Below, one piece after another: positions 27,658 to 40,830 of a stretch of 64,000 nucleotides of DNA. The notes beneath the pieces are model-generated. The model searched no databases. It was not told where the DNA came from and saw only the letters and a program-made list of their open reading frames with translations. Origin of the DNA: Euonymus europaeus (lineage: Eukaryota; Streptophyta; Magnoliopsida; Celastrales; Celastraceae); the NCBI GenBank assembly GCA_963580455.1, contig OY756958.1:24812501-24876500 (forward strand). The letters run 5' to 3'. Positions within the stretch are counted from its first letter, which is position 1. Each line of letters begins with the position of its first letter. The position numbers and the translations under genes were made by a program.

Positions 27658-29535
27658 TGTATTATTGTTGAAGAAAGAAATTAAAGGCTAGAGTAATAGC
27701 AGTAACGTGTGATGCTGTTTTAAAGATGACAATTACATAAAGAACTATTTTGATAACTTGATAAGGACTTCTCTCGAAACACTTCTGAATTATGGGCAAA
27801 AATGCATTAGGGGGTAATAAATAACTGAACTGCTCGAGTTCTAATATTGTACCTAGTGTTCCACTAATCATCTTTTGCTGATCAACCATTAATGTTCAAG
27901 TTTGAGAAGGCAATTTCAGCAAATAGTTCATGGTGTTTCATTTCCTTTTCTTATGCAGATAAGTAATTTATATATTGAGATATCAAACCCTATACTTTAA
28001 AGACTAAACCTTAAATCCTAACTCAAACACGAACGGATATTGGTTTTATAGATAGAAGATAAATACACAGACAAGGGTATACCAATGTGTATATTAATAT
28101 TTTCCCTTAAGTCAGCTCAGTTTCATCATATTACTGTACAAGAGTAATAGCACAGCCGGAAGAGCGTCACAATAAGCAATACACTACTGTGAAACAATAT
28201 TGTTCCAAGAAGGCCTCTGCACTCCACTGTATTGTCCCTTCTCCATCCATAAATGGCAGGGGGGTCACGCAAGAGCTTTTTGTTTGATGGGAGTCCTTGA
28301 TACCGTCTAAAGCTTGTATAAGCTGTTAGGAACAGTGAAATTTTAGTATTACTTTAGCTTCATCCCCTTAAAATGAAACATTTTGGCGTATACTCTGTCA
28401 TTCATATTGTTAGACACTTTCATTTTTTACGCTTTACGAAAGCGTATACTCTATGAAACATACTCTGATACAAACGGATTTTTGGTTTTTGTTTCTGTAA
28501 AAAAGAACCCTCTGCCAGGCTATAGAGCCCAGCATAGACTTGACTTTTAGCCAACTTACGTTTGACACTGGAGACTTGAGAGTGAAGGGCTAATTGGCGT
28601 GGGTTTCAATTCTACCTAGGTTTCCAGCGATCAATGACGCATTTGATCAAACACTTTGAGGTCAATGGGCGATTTGAAAAGTAGCTAGAGATGGGGAGAT
28701 AGACTGACATTTCGAGGCAAAACACTCTGGTGAACCATTGAAAGACCAGCAAGACCTAACATTCATTTCGTTGTACCTACAAACTAGACATGCATGGATA
28801 CATGCTCAATTCCTACTAGACAAGTGATTTTTTTTCAGAGTTGGAAGATCCTAACGTTGTTGTGTAGCTTAGGTAGGTACTCTGTCTCAAGTACTTTGTC
28901 TACTCACGTTTTAAGGCTAAAAATATTAAGCAAATATAGCAAGCAGCTTATGACATGTCACATTATGACCTTACCTTAGACTTAGAGACTATAAACGCTG
29001 CTTTTAGCTCTCATCAAGCTAGCTTTATCACGTCCCCTCTCTTTCTCTTTCTCTCTCTCTGTGTCTCTAAGACAGAAAAGATCGTGAAAGTTGAAGGCTT
29101 TGAACTTTGAAGCTGATGCATAAGTTTTGACCATTTAACCTTCCTTATGGCCAGATATAGACCTAATTGGCTATCTTAAGTGGAAGTTTAACGTCGATCT
29201 ATTTGTAGGGCGAAATCTTATGGATTCATATAATGTTGTAGCTTCAATTCACACAACAATACAATTATATATGGATCGATGTAAATAGATTGCAGTTAGA
29301 CCATCACAAGTTTATAAAAGATAAAAGACAAGAGAAGAATCCAAGTAAATTTAACAAGATAAATTTAAAAAGAAAGGAAAAGTGTAGTTACGATGAGAAA
29401 GATGATCCGAAATAAGAGTTACCATATTAAAATAAATTTCACGACTCACGAGATAATTAGGAATAAAATGAAGCGAGAGACGCTCATCATAGGAATGAAA
29501 AACTCTAGAAAAATATACAGAGTATTCTTATCGAT
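27658..29535. other. TM6 upstream flank and intergenic DNA
   Basis: No gene is supported. It contains MITE family 1 copy 3 (28385-28480) and a CT-rich run near 29040-29065. It ends at the left border of the large Mutator-like element. Confidence 0.55.
28385..28480. mobile_element. MITE family 1, copy 3 (inverted)
   Basis: Read on the minus strand it begins CCGTTTGTATCAGAGTATG and continues with TAGAGTATACGCTTTCGTAA and GTGTCTAACA. This is the same layout as the copies at 12799 and 17427. Confidence 0.65.
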
Positions 29536-31204
29536 AAACTTTAGGGAGATTTACCCATAGGTCCTTAAGTGATACTATTTATTCCGTTAGAGACCTCAAG
29601 CTTTCCAATATTCCATAAAGTCCTTCAAAAATTTGTGGTCAAAATTGCGCTTATTCCACTAAGCCCTAACCATATTTTTTCCCCCCAAAATCAAACGCAG
29701 AGACAAAAAACCGTAACGATCATCGAACTCGACTTCGACTACAACGGAGAAGAAGTCGCAACAGTAGAATCATTGTAGAGCTAGTACTCGCGGTATGATT
29801 CCGAACTCGTTTCAACTTTCTTGTCTCCAAAACTTGTTTTAGATTTCATGTCTCCAAAACTCGTTTTAGTCAAACTTGAAATCCTCTGAATCGGAGTTCA
29901 TTTTCTGGGCGTGATATGCTATGAAGATCTTGATGCTGTTGTGGATCAATTTCGTTTTTGTTTTTTAAAAATGTTTCTTATATTTCTGATTTGTTCTGCC
30001 TTGGTACGCTGGATTGCATGTATTATACACGACCATTAGTTTAATAGCTGCTTCTGTGATTTGTACACTGCATTCCATTTGAGACAATTAAATTCCCTCT
30101 GAACCACATTGATTACCTCTGAATAATCTAGTTCTAGTTTGAAACAATTAGATTTCCTCTGAAAAATGTAATTTCCTCTGAATCTATTACATTTCCATTT
30201 GAAATAATGAGATTTCATGTGAATCAAGATTCACAGGAAATGGATAGAGATTCTTAATCTTAATAGTATTTTGGGACTTACTATCCTATGAATCTTTGAA
30301 TGAAACAAATTAGGCAAAACGAAGAACTAAAAACACACATTTTAGAGATTTAAGAACTGAAATTATATTCTGTTTAATCCATAGGGTTTCAGATATTAGA
30401 TGTAACTCTAATTTCAATTTATGGGACTTAATATGCTGATTATTGTTCATTTGTATCATGAATTTGAGATATCCTCCTTCTAATCAATGTGACTGTAATT
30501 TTAGCTTCTAACTAACAATTTCCTCTGAATAAATTGATGAAGTTTGGTAATTATTATTTGTTGTTTATTATTTCAATTTAAATTAGTTTCAATTTATTAA
30601 CTTTTTGTACTGATTATGCATTTTCCAGAATCAAGTTATAATTTCATCTGAATTCATATGATTTACTCTGAATCTATACATTTACCTTTGAATCATATGG
30701 ATTTCCTCTGAAACTATAAGATTACCTCTAAATCAGCTAGTAGAACTATAAAGCAAGCATAAATTTCCTCTGAAATATGTCAATTACTCTGAAACCATTA
30801 AATTTGCTCTGAATCATTGTGATTTGTTTTAAACCATGTGAATTCCTCTGAAATCAATAGTTTTTCACTATAAACAATTATATTTCCTCTAAAGTCTGAA
30901 CCATGTAAAATTCCTCTAAAACATAAGGATTTCCTCTGAAACAGTTAGAATCAATCTGAATCTGGATGATTACCTTTGAATGAGATAGATATCCTCTGAA
31001 ACATATTGATTTCCTCTGAATCACCACTGAATCATAAAATTTTGTGGATAACTCTGAATAAATTACTATTATAAATTTGTGGATTTCCTCTAAATAAATT
31101 GCTATTATAATATCCTCATGAATGTTTTTTTATGACTAACTCTGAAATTGTATTATGTTTTTTTTTGCATGTTATACTGCAGGCAAAATTTGACAGAAAA
31201 TATA

Positions 31205-34200
31205 ATGGCAAAAACAAGAGGTAATTTATTCCAAAATCGTAATACATCTTTGATCATTAATGAGACTTATGCTGCCGTATCTTGTTTTAATTCACAGCTG
31301 TCAAGAACATCCCAAAAAAATCAAGGAAAACATCAAGGGAGCAAAGGGAGAAAGGGAACTATACAGTACAATTCCGCTCCAACATTGGTGCAGTTAGGAC
31401 ATTACTGACAAGCCTTGAGCTGAAGGATGCTCACAAAACGTTGCTCAAGAAGACTCCATTCTGGAATTTGATGAAACATTTCATAGGGAAACAACCAGAC
31501 ATTAAGATAAGGAAATCAGATGACGCGACATTGGATATAATCCGCACCTACGATGCAGCAAATGATGCTTTTGTTATCGGAAGAAGCAATTTGAAGCTAA
31601 ATGAGAACGATGTAACTCTGATTTTTGGTGTTTGTTCAGGAGATAAAGAAATTAGTTTGGCTTACAAAAGGAGACCAAATTCAGAATTCGTAAACAGACG
31701 ATTCGCTGACACCAAACTAATCAGAGGTGGACATATAAGGAGAGAAATTGATAAAATCATAGAAAGCGACATTGGGAAAGAAATTATGGATGTGGTTCGT
31801 CTGATAGTACTCTATTTGTGTCAATCTCTTTTCTTCCCAATAAATGGAAACACTGTTGGATGGGGCTTCATGGAGTACATTGAAGATTTGGAAGGAATGA
31901 CAGATTACAATTGGTCAAAAGCCATACTGAACAACCTGATGGAATCAATCAGGAAGCACACACACAATCCTGTAAACGTCACTGGTTGTGTGACACTACT
32001 ATTGGTAAGCAATGCTATTAAACTTTACTATCTACTACTCAATTACAATTATCAAAATTCTTACAATGATTTTTTCCACTTTTCAGTATTGGTTTTGTGA
32101 GCACACCACCACAATAACACCATCGCATCAAGGACAATTCCCAAGGTTCCTAAAATGGGACCTTAATTTCTTTAACAAGAACTTCAAGAGGGAAATCCTG
32201 GATAAACTGAAGAGAGATGAGGTAAAATTTATCTCACTACTCACATACAATATTGTTTTATGATTTCAATAGATTCTCTTTGTTTAAGTAAGATTTTATT
32301 TTAATCATTAACAATTTCCTCTGTTTAAACCAGATTTCCTCTGAATGATACATATTTCATACACTCTAGCTAACTACTTAATTAATCATTCAAGTTATTA
32401 AAGGTGACCTTGTGCCAACTGAGGAAGAGAAGCCACATTTTGAAGACGCACAACAACAAGAAATAAATGAAGAAAAAGGCTCAAGTGAAGAATCAAGAAA
32501 CAATAGTGACAATGAAAATTCAGAAGAAGAAATAAATGAGGTGAAACACTCAGACACAGCTGTCAGTTCCAGCAGGACAATGAGTGACATTGAAGGAGCA
32601 GATGAGTATCAATCATCATTCAATAATGATGGTGAAAGCTACAGAATCACAGTTCGTCCAAATGTCGACAATGAGAATGTTATCATTGATCAAGTGAGTA
32701 ACATGAAGAATATGAACAAGAGCAATGAAGATCAGCTGATGCTTAATTCTGATGATCATACCACATTCATTGATGTGCCAATAGTAGTGAGCACTGAATT
32801 ACAGCCAGACATAAACAATGAGCAAACTGCAAAAGAGAAAGAGGACATCGATGCAATAAACAGAGAAGCTGAAAATACCAGAGAAAGGGTTAAAACCTTG
32901 GAGAAGGAAATAGAGGAATACCAAGCACAGATTCTGAAACTAAAAGAAGAAAACAATGATCTAGTGAACCAGCTGGAGGAAAAGGTCGCAGAACTAGCAG
33001 AAAGAAATGGCAACAACGAGCAAAATGCAAAAAATAAAGATGTCATTGATGCACTTGAAAAAGAACCGGAAATTACAAGAGAAAGGTTTGAAATCATGGA
33101 GAAGGAAATGAAGGGATACCAAACTCAAATTCTGAATCTACAAGAAAACAACAGTGACCTAATAGAACAGCTGGAAGAAAAGATTGCAGCACTGGCAGAA
33201 ATAAATGACAGTAATGTGAAGATTCATGCAAAAAGGGAAAAAACTAAGGAGAAAAAGAAGAAGTTAAAAGCAGAATTAGAAGAATCAAGAGACGATAACG
33301 AAACTCTGAAAATGAAGTTGGAATCAGAAAAGGAGAAAAATAGAAAGTTGAAGGCTGAATTAGCAGCTATGACAGAATCTCCTCCTAAAAAAGAAGAAGC
33401 AACAACAACAAAGGAGGAACTGCATAATCAATCTCCATAACCAAGGGCAAGAACTCGAACACTTGTGAGAAATATAAAAACAAGATCAAGAGTAGGGACT
33501 GAAGATCCTGACTTTGAATATGATCTGAAAAAGAAAAAGAATGAAGGAAGGCAAAAAGGGAAGAAACGAATGTTGAAGGATGGAGATGAAGATGAGGACA
33601 AAATCATTGATGTTGATGATTTCGTCCCAAATCCTGCAAATGTTGCCAAGAAGAGAAAGACAACAGTACTCGAAACAGCTATTGAAGGTGACATTGTTCC
33701 AGTTGTTCTAGATGATAATGCTGCAAAATTGCTCAAAGAAATCGAAGAAAAGACAGGAACGGGGTAATGACACTGAATTTGATATATAGCCATTTAAGTT
33801 TTCATTCGTATAGAATTGCAATTAACTACATTTTTTTTAAATGCAGTGCAATAATCTGGTCAGATATCACAGTAGTAACGCTCCACGACATCAATATGCT
33901 GAGGACAAACGACGAGTTTACAAACAGTGTATGGCAATTTCCTCTGAATCCCATGATTTCCTCTAAATCAAATAATTCCCTCCTACTCATATAATTTATA
34001 CTGAATATTATAAGTTTATATGGTTCTTATGAACAATAATTTTAATAAACATAGTAATTTATTTTTGAGATCATATTTTCCTCTGAATCCCATGATTTCC
34101 TCTGAATCCCATGATTTCCTCTGAATCCAATGATTTCCTTTGAATCCAAAAATTCCTCTGAATCCAAAAATTCCACTGAATCTTAAAAGTTCTCTGATTT

Positions 34201-35092
34201 TTATGACACATATTAATAATCATACTATTTTATTTTCAGATAATTGATGGATATGCCCAGATCTTAACACAAAAGCATAAAGCAGCCCCCGAATTTTCAC
34301 TGTTCAGCAACGGCACGCCACTAGTTATTACAAGTTCAGTTATGGTTAGTATGTAATTACTGTTTCTTATTTGATTTTATTGCTTGTATAATAACAACTA
34401 ATTCACATATATATGATTTGATAAAAGGAATACCTGAGGATGAAAGATGATAAATTCTTGAAAGTGTTTGTGGAACCCAAATTGAGGGAAGACGTGGACG
34501 CTGATAACAGCTTAATCATACCATTACATTCCAGCGGACGCAAAAACTCAGGAAGCCATTGGACACTACTTGTACTAGACCGCGGAGAAGAAATTTGGCG
34601 ACATTATAATTCAATTCTGCCAAGGAACAAAAATAGCAGAGACCCATATAGAAAGGATGCACAAGCAATGGTGAGATGATTAAATAATGTTGCTATATCA
34701 TTAAACCCTACTATTATCTATTTTAAACTTATAATATGAACTGCTTATGCATCTGTAGGTTGATTACTACAATACATTATGGGATTCAACAAAAAGCAAA
34801 AAAAAGAAATTACCTCTGCGAACAATGTGGGAAACACCACAACAGCCTGCATCATCGTAAGTATATTAGTCAAACATTTTAAACAATAACATATAGGCTG
34901 TAAATTATAATACTAATCAATTTCTAAACTGAATTATGCAGAGTTGACTGTGGCACAATCTGCTGCTTAATCATGAAGTGTATTTTCAAAGGCGAAGATA
35001 TCCCAACAAGGGTGACTCCTACAGCATTAAGCACTCAAAGAGCCAAAATTGTGCATGAATTCATGTTGGAAGGTGGAAGAGCATGGATATGA
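31205..35092 (+). pseudogene. Transposon Ulp1-like (C48 peptidase) gene with coiled coil
   Basis: Nine exons can be drawn with GT..AG ends: 31205-31220, 31298-32004, 32087-32221, 32404-33763, 33847-33928, 34240-34344, 34428-34670, 34759-34856 and 34942-35092. The N-terminal domain (FRSNIGAVRTLL, TLLKKTPFWNL, LIFGVCSG) resembles the conserved domain preceding plant transposon Ulp1 modules. The middle is an acidic E/K/N-rich coiled coil (KLKEENNDLVNQLEEKVAEL). The C-terminus is a C48 protease: GSHWTLLVL supplies His, DCGTIC supplies Cys, and the usual YDS Asp position reads HYNS. Two defects are visible: an in-frame TAA at 33438-33440, and a junction between exons 3 and 4 that does not keep phase with the best acceptor. 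Function of the family in transposons is unresolved; a role in transposition or silencing evasion is possible. Confidence 0.85.
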
Positions 35093-35462
35093 TAAAGTTT
35101 TAACCAAATTCATGATGACATATAATTTTGGGGTTGAGTATCTGAATGGTTGAATAGAACTCATTTTGTGGATTTAAACATTTTCAATAAGTCGAATCAT
35201 ACATTACTACTATTTTGTAATGATACCTTACAGGGATGCTATTACTTTACATATGTTGACATGGTATTAGTTCAGTAATTCTATTAATACTCTAGAATTT
35301 ATTACAAATCCTCTGTCAATCACATATATCATTTGAATTTGCAAAAAAATTCTGGAATTGATAGGAATCCTCTGTATTTAATAGAAATACTCTGAATTTA
35401 TTACAAATCCTCTGGATTACATATAAATCCTCTGAATTTCATATAAATCCTCTGAAATATGC

Positions 35463-36320
35463 ACTACCAACCTAAACCCTAAACCCTAAACGGGCTCGAA
35501 TATCGGATTAAGATGTTGTAACCTAAACCCTAAAACTAAAACCCCAAACCCTAAGTGTTAAACCCCAAGGGGAACGGATTCCCTAAACCCTAACGGGCTC
35601 GTGTATCGGATTACGATGCTGTAACCTAAACCCTAAGTGTTAAACCCCAAGGGGAACGGATTCGCTAAACCCTAACGGGCTCGTATATCGGATTACGATA
35701 CCGTAACCTAAACCCTAAAATCTAAACCCTAAACCCTAAAATCTAAACCCCAAGGGGAACGGAATCGCTAAACCCTAACGGACTCGTATATCGGATTACG
35801 ATGCCGTAACCTAAACCCTAAAACTAAAACCCTAAACCCTAAAACTAAAACCCTAAACCCTAAAATCTAAACCCTAAACCCTAAATCTAAACCCTAAACC
35901 CTAAAATCTAAACCCCAAGGGAACGGATTCGCTAAACCCTAACGGGCTCGTATATCGGATTACGATGCCGTAACTAAAACCATAAACCCTAAAATCTAAA
36001 CCCTAAACCCTAAAATCTAAACCCCAAGGGGAACGGATTCGCTAAACCCTAATGGGCTCGTATATCGGATTACCATGTTGTAACCTAAATCCTAAGTGTT
36101 AAACCCCAAGGGGAACGGATTCGCTAAACCCTAACGGGCTCTTATATCGGATTACCATAAAATCTAAATCCTATATAACCTAAACCCTAAACCCTATTTA
36201 ACATATAAACCGTAAACCATAGAATCCTAACAGGTTCATGTATCAGATTTCCTTGTTGTAACTAAAAACATAAATGTTAAACCCTACAAGAAATGAATTC
36301 ACTAAACTGTAATAGACTTG
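35463..36320. repeat. Telomere-like (CCCTAAA) composite tandem array
   Basis: Runs of CCTAAACCCTAAA alternate with a conserved spacer, in fragments CCCCAAGGGGAACGGATTCG, CTAAACCCTAACGGGCTCGT and ATATCGGATTACGATGCCGT. The spacer core starts near 35491, 35594, 35676, 35779, 35943, 36053, 36135 and 36231 (degenerate), giving about eight units of 82-164 bp. The array lies between the convergent 3' ends of the Ulp1 and MURA genes. CCCTAAA is the canonical plant telomere repeat, but the conserved spacer shows that this is an amplified composite unit, not simple telomere DNA. Confidence 0.9.
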
Positions 36321-36822
36321 TGTAATGGATTTATCCTCTGGATTTCTTATAAATCCCATGAACTCTTTGAAGTTGTAATTTTATAATTATCCTCTGTTTT
36401 TTTCTTTTTTTTCGAAACCTCAAGATTTCATAGAAACTTTTGAATTAGAATTTTTTAACATGATGAATTCTGTAATACTGTTATGTATAAAATTCCTATA
36501 GAATTTTTAAAAATCATTTGTAATTCACACAAATAATTTGTACTTGACAGAAATCCTCTGGATTGCACAAAAATCCTCTGAAATATGTAGCTCCAGCCCA
36601 AATGGCATGTCAATGACTTCTACATACACAAATAATAAAAATTGAAATAATTAGCATTTAAATCAGTAAACATCAACATTCCACACAAAAAATTACCTTA
36701 AAAATGATAAAATCATGTAAGAAAAATGTGAAATTACAAATATCCTCTGAAACATAAACAGATCCAATTCATATCCAGAACAATAGTTCACAGTTCTTGA
36801 AAATTAAAGCTAAAAAAATGAG

Positions 36823-39165
36823 TCAAATCTCTACAGTACAAGATCTCCTATTATGATTAGCAAAACAACCACATCTGCCACACCTAATTCTCTTGGAAAT
36901 AACCTCTCCACGTGAAAGAATCCTTTTCTTCCTTGGCCTACCAGGCTGCTTCTTACACAAAGGAGGGAGCACAACATGATTTACAAGTCTAAAATCTGGC
37001 TTGCAAAAAGTTGAGACAGGGCAAATAGGAATGAAGTAACTCAGGATATAAGATTGAGCATGAAAATAGCTGTCTACAAAATCAAAAGGCTTATCAGTGC
37101 TCCTATGTAAAGCTGCTATGGCATGTGAACATGGAAAACCATTGTGTTGCCAATGACCGCAAGAGCATGTATGTAAAGAAATATCAACCACCATAGAAGG
37201 ATGCGAATGAACCTCAAAAATATGATCACTGGATGAACTCACAACCTAAGCACAACTCTCTTTCAAGCCAATGTTATATCTTTTCTCCATTTCAGTACAC
37301 AACACCGATGTCCACTTCAAGGCAGCAGCTTTCCTACTAGACATTTGATTCATAAGCATCAATCTAATTCGATCAATCAAATCAGTGATTGGTAAATGGC
37401 GATAATCTCGAATTTGAGAGTTAAATGACTCAGCAGCATTGGAACACATCTCTCCATAACGCATACCCATAAAATAAGCATTACTCCAATTCTCAAAAGG
37501 AATATCATTCAGAAAATCCTCTACTCTTCTCCCGCCCTCATTCTTCAAATCCACTAACTTCATATGAAACAGCTCCTTTGTTGGCGCATAGGCACATTCA
37601 CGAAACTTATAAACCACCCTCTCCCTAAATACATTGGTCGAACCCCTCAGCTTATCCTTCAAATTATTTTTTAGATGCTGGAGGCAAAATGAATGAAAAC
37701 CAGATGGAAAAACTTTCTTCACCCCTGCAATCAGGCCTTTATTTTGGTCAGAAATGAAAGTAATAACACGGTCCGACCAAACTGCAGCCAATTTTTCAAG
37801 AAACCATGACCAATTTTCCATATCCTCAGAGCGAACAATTGCAAATGCAACAGGAAACAGTCCTACAAAAAAAAATAAAGAAGGGAATCAACTCATAATC
37901 AAAAATCCACTGAAACATACAGAAATCCTCTGAAAACTGCACAAAACAGATTCAAAATGATGACTACTTTGTAAAAAAAGATTAAAAACTTAATAAATAT
38001 AGGAAAAATTATAAAAAACATAAAAAGTACACAATTTAAATAATTTGATGTAAGAAATGAATTACTAACCTTGGTTGCCATCTTTAATGGTAGCAACTAG
38101 AAGGTTACCCTTATACTTGCATTTCAAAAATGTACCATCCAAAAATAGCATTGGACGACAGTAGTTAAAGCCCTTGCAACATGCACCAAATGCAATAAAA
38201 CACCTCTGAAATTGTCCAGTAACACGGTCACAATCAATAGAAAAATGACTTGTCGGATCCATACGAGCTGCTTGGTCAAAATACCAACGCAATTGATCAA
38301 ATGATGAAGCAATATCTCCAAAAATTTCCTTCTTAGCTTTTTCGACAGCAGACCAAGCAACATGATAACTAATTTCAAGACCGTAATTTGTCTTAAAATC
38401 ATGAACAACATCAATCGGACGTATTAAAGGCTTTCCACGAACTTGTTCAAATATTAGTTTAGAAACAACTTCAGAACTCATCCTTGAATTTTTAGATGTC
38501 CTCACAACAACACCACATGTATGAACATTATTCAAAGTCCTAATATATACATATCCATTTGACTTATCAACCGATGCATAAATCCGCCACAAGCACCCTT
38601 TTGATTCTTTAAAACTACATTTTGCAGTGACCCTCTCCTTATCATTCTTGACATATTCATACTTGAAACCAACCTCAACTGCATACTTTGCTAAAGTATT
38701 ACGGAATCCAGAAATGCCATCTTCAAAAGCTTGACCAACCTCCCTAATTGCATTAGCCCAACTAGAACCTAACAAATCCATCTCATGATGCCCACAAAAC
38801 TTCAAAAGTAAGTCATTCTCATTAGGCACTGGATATTGTAAATCAATCATTGAATTTGCATGTATAATTTCAGAACTTGCTGTCTCTTCAAGTAACAATG
38901 GACCACTAGCATTAACAACAACCTCAACACGATCCAAACCACTAGGACGAACCAAATATAACATATTCTGCATATCCTCATCATTCTCCATGATACAACC
39001 AGTATGACCTGGTATAGAATATGAAAATTTCACAATGGAATGAGATAACTCAAACCACTTTTGACGTACAAATTCAACCAACAAATCATACGAAAAAGGT
39101 TCTGGAAGCCTCTTAATGGTAGTTTGATTGCCATATTTACAAATGAATAGGATCACTTCAGACAT
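36823..39165 (-). pseudogene. MURA-type MULE transposase with SWIM finger, one in-frame stop
   Basis: Two exons, 39165-38070 and 37862-36823, join in phase and span 711 codons plus the stop. The N-terminus (MSEVILFICKYG) resembles a PB1-like fold. A MuDR DNA-binding region follows (TAKCSFKESKGCLWRIYAS ... HTC). The catalytic MULE/DDE core includes FLDGTFLKCKYKG and, after the intron, GLFPVAFAIVRSED, then FISDQNKGLIAGV. A SWIM finger reads CSCGHWQHNGFPCSH, and a terminal Cys/His knuckle reads CGRCGCFANHNRRSC. A single TAG at 37246-37248 lies in frame between the core (...GLKESCA) and the SWIM part (VVSSSSDHIFEV). The rest is uninterrupted, so inactivation is recent or depends on that one stop. 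It would bind element ends and excise DNA in the nucleus. Confidence 0.92.
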
Positions 39166-40216
39166 AGCAAAACCTATAAATGAGAAAATTCATTGTAAAA
39201 TCAAAATCAGAAAATATATAAATATAAAATCCTCTGAAACTAAAAAAACAGAGGAAATAAGTAACAGTAGCAATTCCATAAACCATACACAAATCAAACA
39301 GAAAGAGATAACAAAAATCATTAACTAATACTAAAACGAAATAAAATTCATCATTAATGATAACATAAAGTTAACTAACATAATAAGTGAACTAACATAA
39401 ATCATGAACAAAATCATTTGAATTAAACATAAAAATACTCTTAGATCTAAAAAAATAATCCAGAAATAACAAATCAAAACATGTAATGAAAAATTAAGAT
39501 AAATCGAAACTCAAAAAACAATAATCAACAAAAATCCTCTGAAACAGTAACAACAAAACCATTTCATTAAACATATTAAAAAAATACTCCTAGGACTACG
39601 AAAATACTCCAGAAACAAAAATTGAAGACATTAAATGATAAATTATGAAAGCTTCAAACTCAAAAGCTCATAATGAAAACAATCCTCTAAAATAGTATCA
39701 ACAAAATCATTTGAATTAAACATAAAGAATACTCCTAGATCTAAGAAAATACTCTAGAAAAAACAAATCAAAACATCGAATGGTAAATTCAGATAGTTCG
39801 AAGCTGAAAAACTCATGATCAACAAAAATCCTCTAAAAAAGTAACTGAAAATGAGATGCAATCAACAGCTGTAATCGAATGAATAAAATCTTATTATTAC
39901 CTATTTCAACCAAAGAATCAATCAGAAGTTATAGTCGAACAAAATCGAAAGTGTGATAATGATTTTTTTTGAATGAAGAAACGTAAGCTCGGGAGGCTAA
40001 GCTTCACGTGAATAGTATCAGTTCCAAAAACTGAAATCTGTTAATTAGGTATAAGTAAGGGCAAATTTGTCATACTATTAAATGAAATATTAGGTTTGTC
40101 CTTATTGGGTTAAAACACAAAAACTTAAGGATGTATTGGGCCACCAAAAGTATTAAAATACTTTATGGAATAAGAAGCCCATATAAAGGACTTTTCACCA
40201 AAAAAACCTAAACTTT

Positions 40217-40830
40217 AAATGTAATTTTAAGTTATATTTAATACAAAATTTAATCGTTAAAATAATACATTTTTAGTCATTTTGTAAAAAGATATTATTA
40301 TTAAAATCTAAAAAAATAAAGTATTATATTTTTGTATAAAAATGGCTGCCTATTCAATCATTCTCATTATTCATACCAGTACTAATTTATATAAGTATTT
40401 GTTTATTTATATATTTTTAATTACCTTTTTAACAGTACACCTCCATCAAACACGTGCTAAACGGTGCTTATAATGTAATTGGTGAGTGCATTAAAGGCAA
40501 GTACCTATCCTACTAACTAGTAACTACTTAAATTAGTGAAGTGAGACCTGATGAAGACCGAGTTGTCTAGTCCCTTCTTTATCTTTCATGACCCAAGTGA
40601 TGTATTCCATTACATACATGCTCTAGATCCAATTCATTTTTCTTTATTATTACCACGAAATCGATTTTTTAACTGTCAGAAAATTAATAAATGAAGGGTT
40701 TATGTTAGAAATGAATGAGGTTAGCAGTTAGAACCGAAAGTGTTCTACCTCAAACAAGAAGGAAAAAAAAAAGAGTTAAGTTTTTACCATTCCAATTTGG
40801 GTAAACATTACATTACCTCATTTATTGAAG
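40217..40830. other. Short intergenic spacer
   Basis: AT-rich spacer between the large MULE and the long-inverted-repeat element. No gene or repeat was recognised. Its last nine bases (TTATTGAAG, 40822-40830) are the left target duplication of the next element. Confidence 0.6.

Follow-up and report, generated by a model that had tools for sequence, protein, structure and literature searches.

The Element and Its Two Genes

We analyzed a stretch of 64,000 nucleotides of contig OY756958.1 of Euonymus europaeus (in the following called the window), which contains a Mutator-like element (MULE) of the VANDAL/KIU type. The element carries a VANC-like gene and a transposase gene, and its non-coding DNA is densely occupied by the word CCTCTGAA, which is the subject of this study (Table 1). 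The original prediction had placed the element at 29536–40216; its exact bounds lie slightly inside. Among ten siblings in the same genome, at least three (C7a, C8, and C10) are flanked by perfect target duplications of their own, and in C7b 8 of 9 bases agree. Of 52 inverted pairs, the 25 longest include no long terminal inverted repeat; the best end-to-end match comprises 26 nt with 81% identity and is located 36–65 bp inside the ends.

The frame of the VANC-like gene contains an in-frame TAA at 33438–33440, and the intron before exon 4 is out of phase in our model. Exons 1–3 matched PMD (Plant mobile domain) with an E-value of 1e-7 and 31.9 bits, just under the cut-off of 34.9, and of 25 aligned VANC-like members 20 matched PMD and 12 DUF1985 (E ≤ 0.05). 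The predicted N-terminal model has the fold of VANC21 crystallized on its target DNA (9lnj), with 16–19% identity. When the PDB was searched by sequence, the full alignment led to coiled coils and the N-terminal alignment to nothing convincing (best E 0.01). A VANC-type DNA-binding domain is predicted to be present by fold, not by sequence. A fuzzy 30-base scan of 11 elements found two unit starts of the 198-bp coding repeat in seven elements and one in four. Canonical Ulp1 proteases have Asp at the position of the Asn of HYNS. Across the VANC-like subfamilies of this genome (see below), the His and this Asn are mostly kept, with S3 (HYIS) and L032 (SNRW, RYNL) as exceptions; where the Cys stretch could be aligned, it reads DCG in S1, S5, S16, and S24 and DSG in S2, and it is lost in S3.

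The transposase matched the profiles DBD_Tnp_Mut (1.2e-13), MULE (6.4e-10), and SWIM (1.4e-10) above cut-off and PB1 below cut-off. As both genes contain stop codons, the window copy is probably a target of the proteins, not their source, and thus probably not autonomous.

Table 1. Features of the element and of its word arrays in the window.
Feature	Position	Strand	Remarks
Mutator-like element (VANDAL/KIU type), 10,665 bp	29544–40208		Ends common to siblings; 9-bp target duplication TAAACTTTA at 29535–29543 and 40209–40217
VANC-like gene	31205–35092	+	Manual splice model, nine exons; cousins match most exons
Exons of the VANC-like model	31205–31220, 31298–32004, 32087–32221, ~32404–33763, 33847–33928, 34240–34344, 34428–34670, 34759–34856, 34942–35092	+
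N-terminal PMD/DUF1985-like domain, predicted word reader	31300–32004	+	PMD and DUF1985 matches, VANC21 fold match
Coding tandem repeat, 198 bp (66 aa), coiled-coil region	32814–33207	+	Tandem Repeats Finder, 2.0 copies, 79% matches
Ulp1 (Peptidase_C48) domain	33847–35092	+	PF02902, 25.5 bits, cut-off 20.7; His (SHW), Asn (HYNS), Cys (DCG)
Transposase	36823–39165	-	Exons 39165–38070 and 37862–36823; in-frame TAG at 37246–37248
Upstream/5' non-coding word array	29883–31146	+	12 exact CCTCTGAA and single-mismatch forms, spacing mostly 19–20 or ~40 bp
Lone exact CCTCTGAA, intron 3	32338–32345	+
Intron-5 word array	33941–34180	+	Exact at 33941, 34080, 34099, 34118, 34155; 3 single-mismatch
Array in gap between the two genes	35369–35456	+	Exact at 35429, 35449; 3 single-mismatch; 20-bp spacing
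Words downstream of transposase	36335–36751	+	Exact at 36575, 36744; single-mismatch at 36335, 36555
Words in transposase intron, antisense to transposase	37907–37934	+	Exact at 37927; single-mismatch at 37907
Sole exact CCTCTGAA in an exon (transposase)	38203–38210	+
Words upstream of transposase	39231–39837	+	Exact at 39231, 39536; single-mismatch at 39684, 39830; partly within 145-bp tandem repeat

Density, Orientation, and Spacing of the Word

Counted on both strands of the window, CCTCTGAA occurs 27 times, compared to a mean of 2.1 and a largest count of 6 in 100 dinucleotide shuffles, none of which reached 27. Within 29536–40216, 26 exact copies are located on the plus strand and none on the minus strand; the rest of the window contains none and one, respectively. 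According to our exon models, 25 of these 26 copies are in non-coding DNA of the element. Single-mismatch forms are likewise biased in the non-coding DNA of the element (25 plus, 1 minus), with 2 plus and 4 minus in its coding DNA and 20 on each strand outside the element. A first-order Markov model of the element's non-coding DNA yielded on average 0.15 exact copies and at most two in 300 runs. A chance origin of the density was ruled out by the shuffles and the Markov model. The original prediction, made by eye, had described about 25 exact copies and many single-mismatch forms in introns, in the gap between the genes and in both end regions, all on the same strand and only one in an exon. 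The counts and the mapped arrays bear this out, and the proposed excess over shuffled sequence and inequality of the strands were both found.

From 50 non-coding plus-strand sites with at most one mismatch, a logo of roughly AWWTCCTCTGAAW was obtained, with 0.1–0.2 bit at positions -10 to -7 and +11 and 0.35–0.5 bit at +12 to +14. The refined logo, ATTTCCTCTGAAtc, is a longer form of CCTCTGAA and reproduces the conserved context that had been written down initially. Sites with at most one mismatch form 33 gaps to their neighbours that are shorter than 60 bp; 23 of these gaps measured 18–20 bp and five 39–42 bp, the remaining ones being 11, 27, 27, 36, and 52 bp. The best period of the pairwise site distances was ~20.7 bp, corresponding to two helix turns, with a smaller peak near 10. 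Identity between neighbours was 0.89 for words and 0.50 for spacers, compared to 0.32 for random spacer pairs, the contrast between words and spacers being inflated because the sites were picked via the word itself. Since neighbouring spacers are less alike than the words, yet more alike than random pairs, the arrays appear to derive from old tandem units in which drift has affected the spacers more strongly than the word. Upstream of the transposase, a 145-bp tandem repeat with three copies (39407–39845) holds words as well as decayed words.

Many words are intronic, and tandem repeats can attract RNA-directed DNA methylation (RdDM), as described in part of a study in EMBO Reports (2023; PMC10398659). 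Both points would suit a host factor site or an RNA-level signal such as an intronic enhancer, a splicing signal or a repeat generating small interfering RNAs. We consider such a function highly improbable, because the words are sense in the introns of the VANC-like gene and antisense in the transposase intron, also occur outside both genes, and differ between clades within one host (see below). An RNA-level signal of one transcript was ruled out by the antisense words in the transposase intron.

The Word in Siblings and Cousins

In the E. europaeus genome (443 Mb, 30 contigs), the 14-mer ATTTCCTCTGAATC had 90 matches compared to two for the reversed control. The main blocks of the ten sibling copies are 88–97% identical to the window element (C11 has in addition one 80% block, and satellite blocks are lower). 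C1 aligns over 29517–34088 only and its scanned stretch includes unrelated DNA, C14 was called without a 5' end, the 3' bounds are uncertain in C1, C2b, C11, and C13, and those of C6 are off by a few bases. The original prediction had expected siblings to keep the word, and all ten do: exact non-coding copies in the window element and its siblings number 15–28 on the plus strand and zero on the minus strand, where 0–3 single-mismatch non-coding forms occur. Anchors of the intron-5 segment were found in 8 of 11 elements, in which its length varies from 273 to 329 bp in steps of about one unit. Tandem word units are thus gained and lost between copies.

Three cousins (L029, L030, and L031), whose VANC N-terminal regions match that of the window element with 59–75%, contain 12, 12, and 15 exact non-coding copies, all on the plus strand and spaced as in the window, together with 25, 28, and 23 single-mismatch non-coding forms on this strand. 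L031 (G000:C13:8799500-8807500) is a mosaic, as its VANC half is ~74% and its transposase half 93% identical to the window element; the halves were apparently swapped between subfamilies.

The mosaic bears on the question of which protein reads the word. The words might be binding sites of the transposase (MURA), similar to the repeated subterminal sites of some transposons, and serve copy recognition in transposition. They are present towards both element ends as well, word and transposase alike follow the descent of the element, and L031, with a cousin-type VANC half and a window-type transposase half, still has the word, so that the word alone cannot tell the VANC-like protein from the transposase as reader. 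However, the words occupy introns and the intergenic gap and not chiefly the ends, their orientation towards both ends is equal and not inverted, and the VANC21 fold match is in the VANC-like protein instead, which makes transposase sites an unlikely explanation. The original prediction had named either the Ulp1/coiled-coil protein or MURA; the predicted VANC21-like N-terminal fold and the change of words between clades narrow this choice to the Ulp1/coiled-coil protein as the candidate reader.

Sixty of the 90 ATTTCCTCTGAATC matches, five of them from the window, are located at most 9 kb from one of 19 listed VANC exons of the S1/S2 clade, and all 60 are on the strand of the gene. The other 30 are not near a listed S1/S2 VANC exon. 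Four of these, in three regions, were inspected: L001/L032 contains a Ulp1 fragment with a best stretch 69% identical to the cousin cB, L033 (two matches) a rearranged transposase with 73–85% identity in the main pieces, and the L008 match gave no BLAST match to the element.

Other VANC-Like Subfamilies and Their Words

A protein search of the genome revealed at least 151 VANC-like matches with 32–100% identity (150 of 572 candidates were scored). A few loci yield two matches; the matches correspond to well over 100 loci. Besides S1 and S2, we analyzed 15 representatives of other subfamilies, covering ~5 kb each, and picked the word of each locus by a score that is blind to CCTCTGAA. Exact CCTCTGAA is absent from the gene strand of all 15, and a single copy is present on the opposite strand of S13. 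The score was 12.9–58 in 12 of 18 loci (S1, S2, and L032 included) and at most 10.1 in shuffles. Eight of nine control chunks of the window scored 3.1–8.3 and one AT-rich microsatellite chunk 38.

Clear words were found in 9 of the 15 other subfamily loci, and none of them is CCTCTGAA. With exact counts on the plus and the minus strand in brackets, these words are TTACATTG in S8 (12/2), ATTACATT in S11 (7/1), TGACATTG in S12 (6/0), GACATTGT in S15 (7/0), TATTCCAT in S22 (15/8), ATTCCATT in S5 (7/3), and both TTCTCTAT and TTCTCTGT in S28 (15/0 for the latter). S7 and S18 have ATGTAATG, the TTACATTG type in opposite orientation to the gene. No clear word was seen in S4, which shares 78% identity with S5. 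Refined-logo sites on the word strand and on the other strand number 38/1 in S1, 41/2 in S2, 32/7 in S8, 35/10 in S11, 34/4 in S12, 29/17 in S15, 26/7 in S28, 20/5 in S7, 19/8 in S18, 21/17 in S5, and 36/22 in S22. The spacing is often 18–22 bp in S12, S15, and S28 and ~31 bp in S22. Among the matches listed for the top exact words (at most 12 for each word), none is in a VANC exon of S8, S22, or S28, and one each in S12 and S15. A Ulp1 domain was detected by tblastn within 5 kb in 13 of the 15 loci, weakly in S22, and in neither S11 nor S13. In L046 (S22), TATTCCATTGTA recurs every ~31 bp, with reverse-complement words ~16–17 bp after some copies, a dyad array that contrasts with the arrays of S1, which occupy one strand.

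On an 18-row protein tree the word labels, which were set after the words were seen and include the weak ones of S6, S13, and S16, need eight changes, compared to a minimum of 6 and a mean of 12.0 in 200 shuffles, none of which was as low. Several word types thus appear to track the VANC-like protein tree broadly. The words can be written on a common frame, roughly TTNCWYTGWA (TTCCTCTGAA, TTTCTCTGTA, TTACATTGTA, TGACATTGT, TTCCATTGTA), which was also drawn up after they were seen. We tentatively propose, at somewhat less than even odds, a radiation of VANC-like proteins in this genome in which each clade reads its own letters on the common frame, including a clade whose word is flipped against its gene (S7/S18) and a forward/reverse word type with ~31-bp units (S5/S22).

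Possible Traces of Selection and Methylation

In the window element and nine siblings (C1 left out), variation at word positions (0.0273) is slightly under that of other non-coding DNA (0.0295). Within the word, the C and the G of the CTG (CHG) site, which occupies word positions 4–6, are the most mutable. C to T accounts for 12 of 16 change types at the former and G to A for 12 of 18 at the latter, a pattern that methylated cytosines would be expected to give. This CTG behaves like CHG sites elsewhere, changing mostly in these two ways, and the copies were therefore probably methylated. In this manner the landing site may be gradually eroded by host methylation. When subfamily consensuses were compared, identity was 0.88 in the word core and 0.76 in the spacers (Fisher 0.016 and 0.007; 19 and 18 sites). 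For the VANC-like subfamilies we obtained a synonymous divergence (dS) of 0.7–1.0 and ratios of nonsynonymous to synonymous divergence (dN/dS) of 0.19 for the N-terminal domain, 0.35 for Ulp1, and 0.56 for the variable middle, indicating that purifying selection acts on the first two and less on the third.

The picture for selection on the word itself is mixed, with moderate support from the comparison of consensuses; the persistence of word, strand, and spacing over dS ~0.7–1.0 is the stronger argument. The original prediction had invoked selection or amplification, not chance. Chance is rejected and tandem units are seen, whereas selection is moderately supported between subfamilies and not seen among siblings. 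The alternative of neutral tandem amplification holds that a short unit without function spread by slippage and repeat turnover. It agrees with the gain and loss of units between siblings, with adjacent spacers being more alike than random pairs, and with the lack of clear constraint on the word among siblings. It does not account well for words in seven separate non-coding places that are far more alike than the spacers (a contrast inflated by the choice of sites), for the persistence to cousins just mentioned or for the different words in other VANC clades of the same genome, and it therefore appears improbable, to a similar degree as transposase sites.

A Probable VANC-Type Target Word

In our opinion this MULE very probably carries an anti-silencing system of the VANC type, with CCTCTGAA (ATTTCCTCTGAAtc) as its target word. 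The VANC-like protein, composed of a PMD/DUF1985-like domain, a coiled coil, and Ulp1, would bind words about every two helical turns in the introns, in the intergenic gap, and towards both ends. Dense words in one orientation would allow many VANC-like molecules to assemble on family members only, and the assembly would strip these copies of silent marks, DNA methylation among them, enabling the two genes and the element ends to function. Ulp1 may have a role in this anti-silencing.

In the work of Sasaki and colleagues from 2022, specificity is reported to depend on the sequence of the motif, its density, and its helical periodicity. Features of VANDAL/KIU elements found here are the Mutator-like transposase, the 9-bp duplication, Ulp1 in the VANC protein, a dense non-coding word on one strand, turnover of its units, and lineage-specific words. 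The element resembles Arabidopsis VANDAL21/VANC21 in being a MULE whose second protein is predicted to have the fold of VANC21 on DNA (9lnj). It differs in its word, in the attached Ulp1, in the plant, and in that the N-terminal likeness is one of fold only. According to the relevant parts of Hosaka et al. (2017; PMC5735166), VANC21 binds YAGTATTAY, present in one orientation and at high density in non-coding tandem repeats; short, dense, equally oriented words in non-coding DNA with tandem-repeat turnover are shared by our element. The same parts state that VANC6 uses words other than those of VANC21 and that the variable regions of VANCs carry tandem peptides. VANDAL6, with the words AGTTGTCC and AGTTGTAC, parallels our case in that related VANC proteins use distinct words in one genome, and differs from it in the words themselves. 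TTGTA is common to AGTTGTAC and the CATTGTA words of this genome, a possible lead. In the portion of the 2023 study used above (PMC10398659), the non-coding regions on which RdDM acts are shown to be those on which VANC acts as well. In a 2026 review (PMC13317346) that cites Sasaki et al. (2022), VANCs carrying Ulp1 (KIU) are described to recognise motifs in their own kind, and the capture of Ulp1, strongly conserved in eudicots, is dated to the monocot–eudicot separation. The window element is similar to these KIU-type VANDALs, which combine a MULE with a VANC-like protein, Ulp1, and family-limited motifs in non-coding DNA, and differs by its plant genome and its words (CCTCTGAA, TATGACATTG, and others). 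The VANDAL/VANC analogy drawn initially is supported.

Several observations weigh against a VANC-type target word. At the protein level, DUF1985 matched exons 1–3 only with an E-value of 0.046 (14.1 bits, cut-off 35.1), and VANC21 gave no row at E ≤ 10 in the PDB search with the N-terminal alignment. Among the siblings (C1 left out), neither the comparison of positions nor that of contexts supported purifying selection on the word: variation was 0.0273 at word positions and 0.0275 in the flanks, and by context 0.098 vs 0.0995 at A/T and 0.355 vs 0.364 at CHG. Solely CHH cytosines were lower in the word (0.117 vs 0.251), possibly a context effect. In the cousins, nine, three, and two single-mismatch forms are on the minus strand, partly in flanking DNA, and the S2-like fragment L032 has the word on both strands. 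Six of the 18 loci are without a clear word (S3, S4, S6, S13, S16, and S24, with scores of 5.4–9.5); five of these score higher than the 20 shuffles of their own sequence but do not stand out clearly from the control chunks, and therefore no clear word was assigned. The near-absolute strand lock belongs to S1/S2, and the bias elsewhere is weaker (e.g., S15 and S22). No clear ~20-bp phasing was seen for the refined-logo sites of S8, S11, S7, and S18. As to the tree, pairs of 75–92% identity inflate the label test, S5 and S22, which carry the CCATTG word type, do not form one clade, and the agreement of words and clades could stem from shared descent of whole elements.

The element is a further case of the known VANDAL/VANC type, and its main value lies in the clade-linked words of one genome. 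A VANC-type target word would mean that the principle of a transposon protein finding only its own family via a dense short word also holds in another plant genome. With many VANC-like loci and several word types at hand, changes of VANC specificity become testable by swaps of domains and words, and new candidate word–protein pairs are available for targeted epigenome work. If the letters are clade-specific, protein letters and DNA letters could be set side by side and read as a natural code of specificity in sequence-specific anti-silencing.

Further Observations

A telomere-like, CCCTAAA-rich satellite with GGGGAACGG and TATCGGATTACGATGCCG units is located between the two genes of the element (~35470–36230). 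In Tripterygium wilfordii, the proteins P0097 and P0101 have a VANC-like N-terminal domain (48% and 45% identical to that of the window, respectively) fused to an XH domain (PF03469, best E 5.7e-54), which we take to be the domain seen in the RdDM factors FDM/IDN2. P0101 is named "factor of DNA methylation 1-like." These could be proteins of the anti-silencing type with a domain borrowed from an RdDM factor, or fusions caused by gene prediction.

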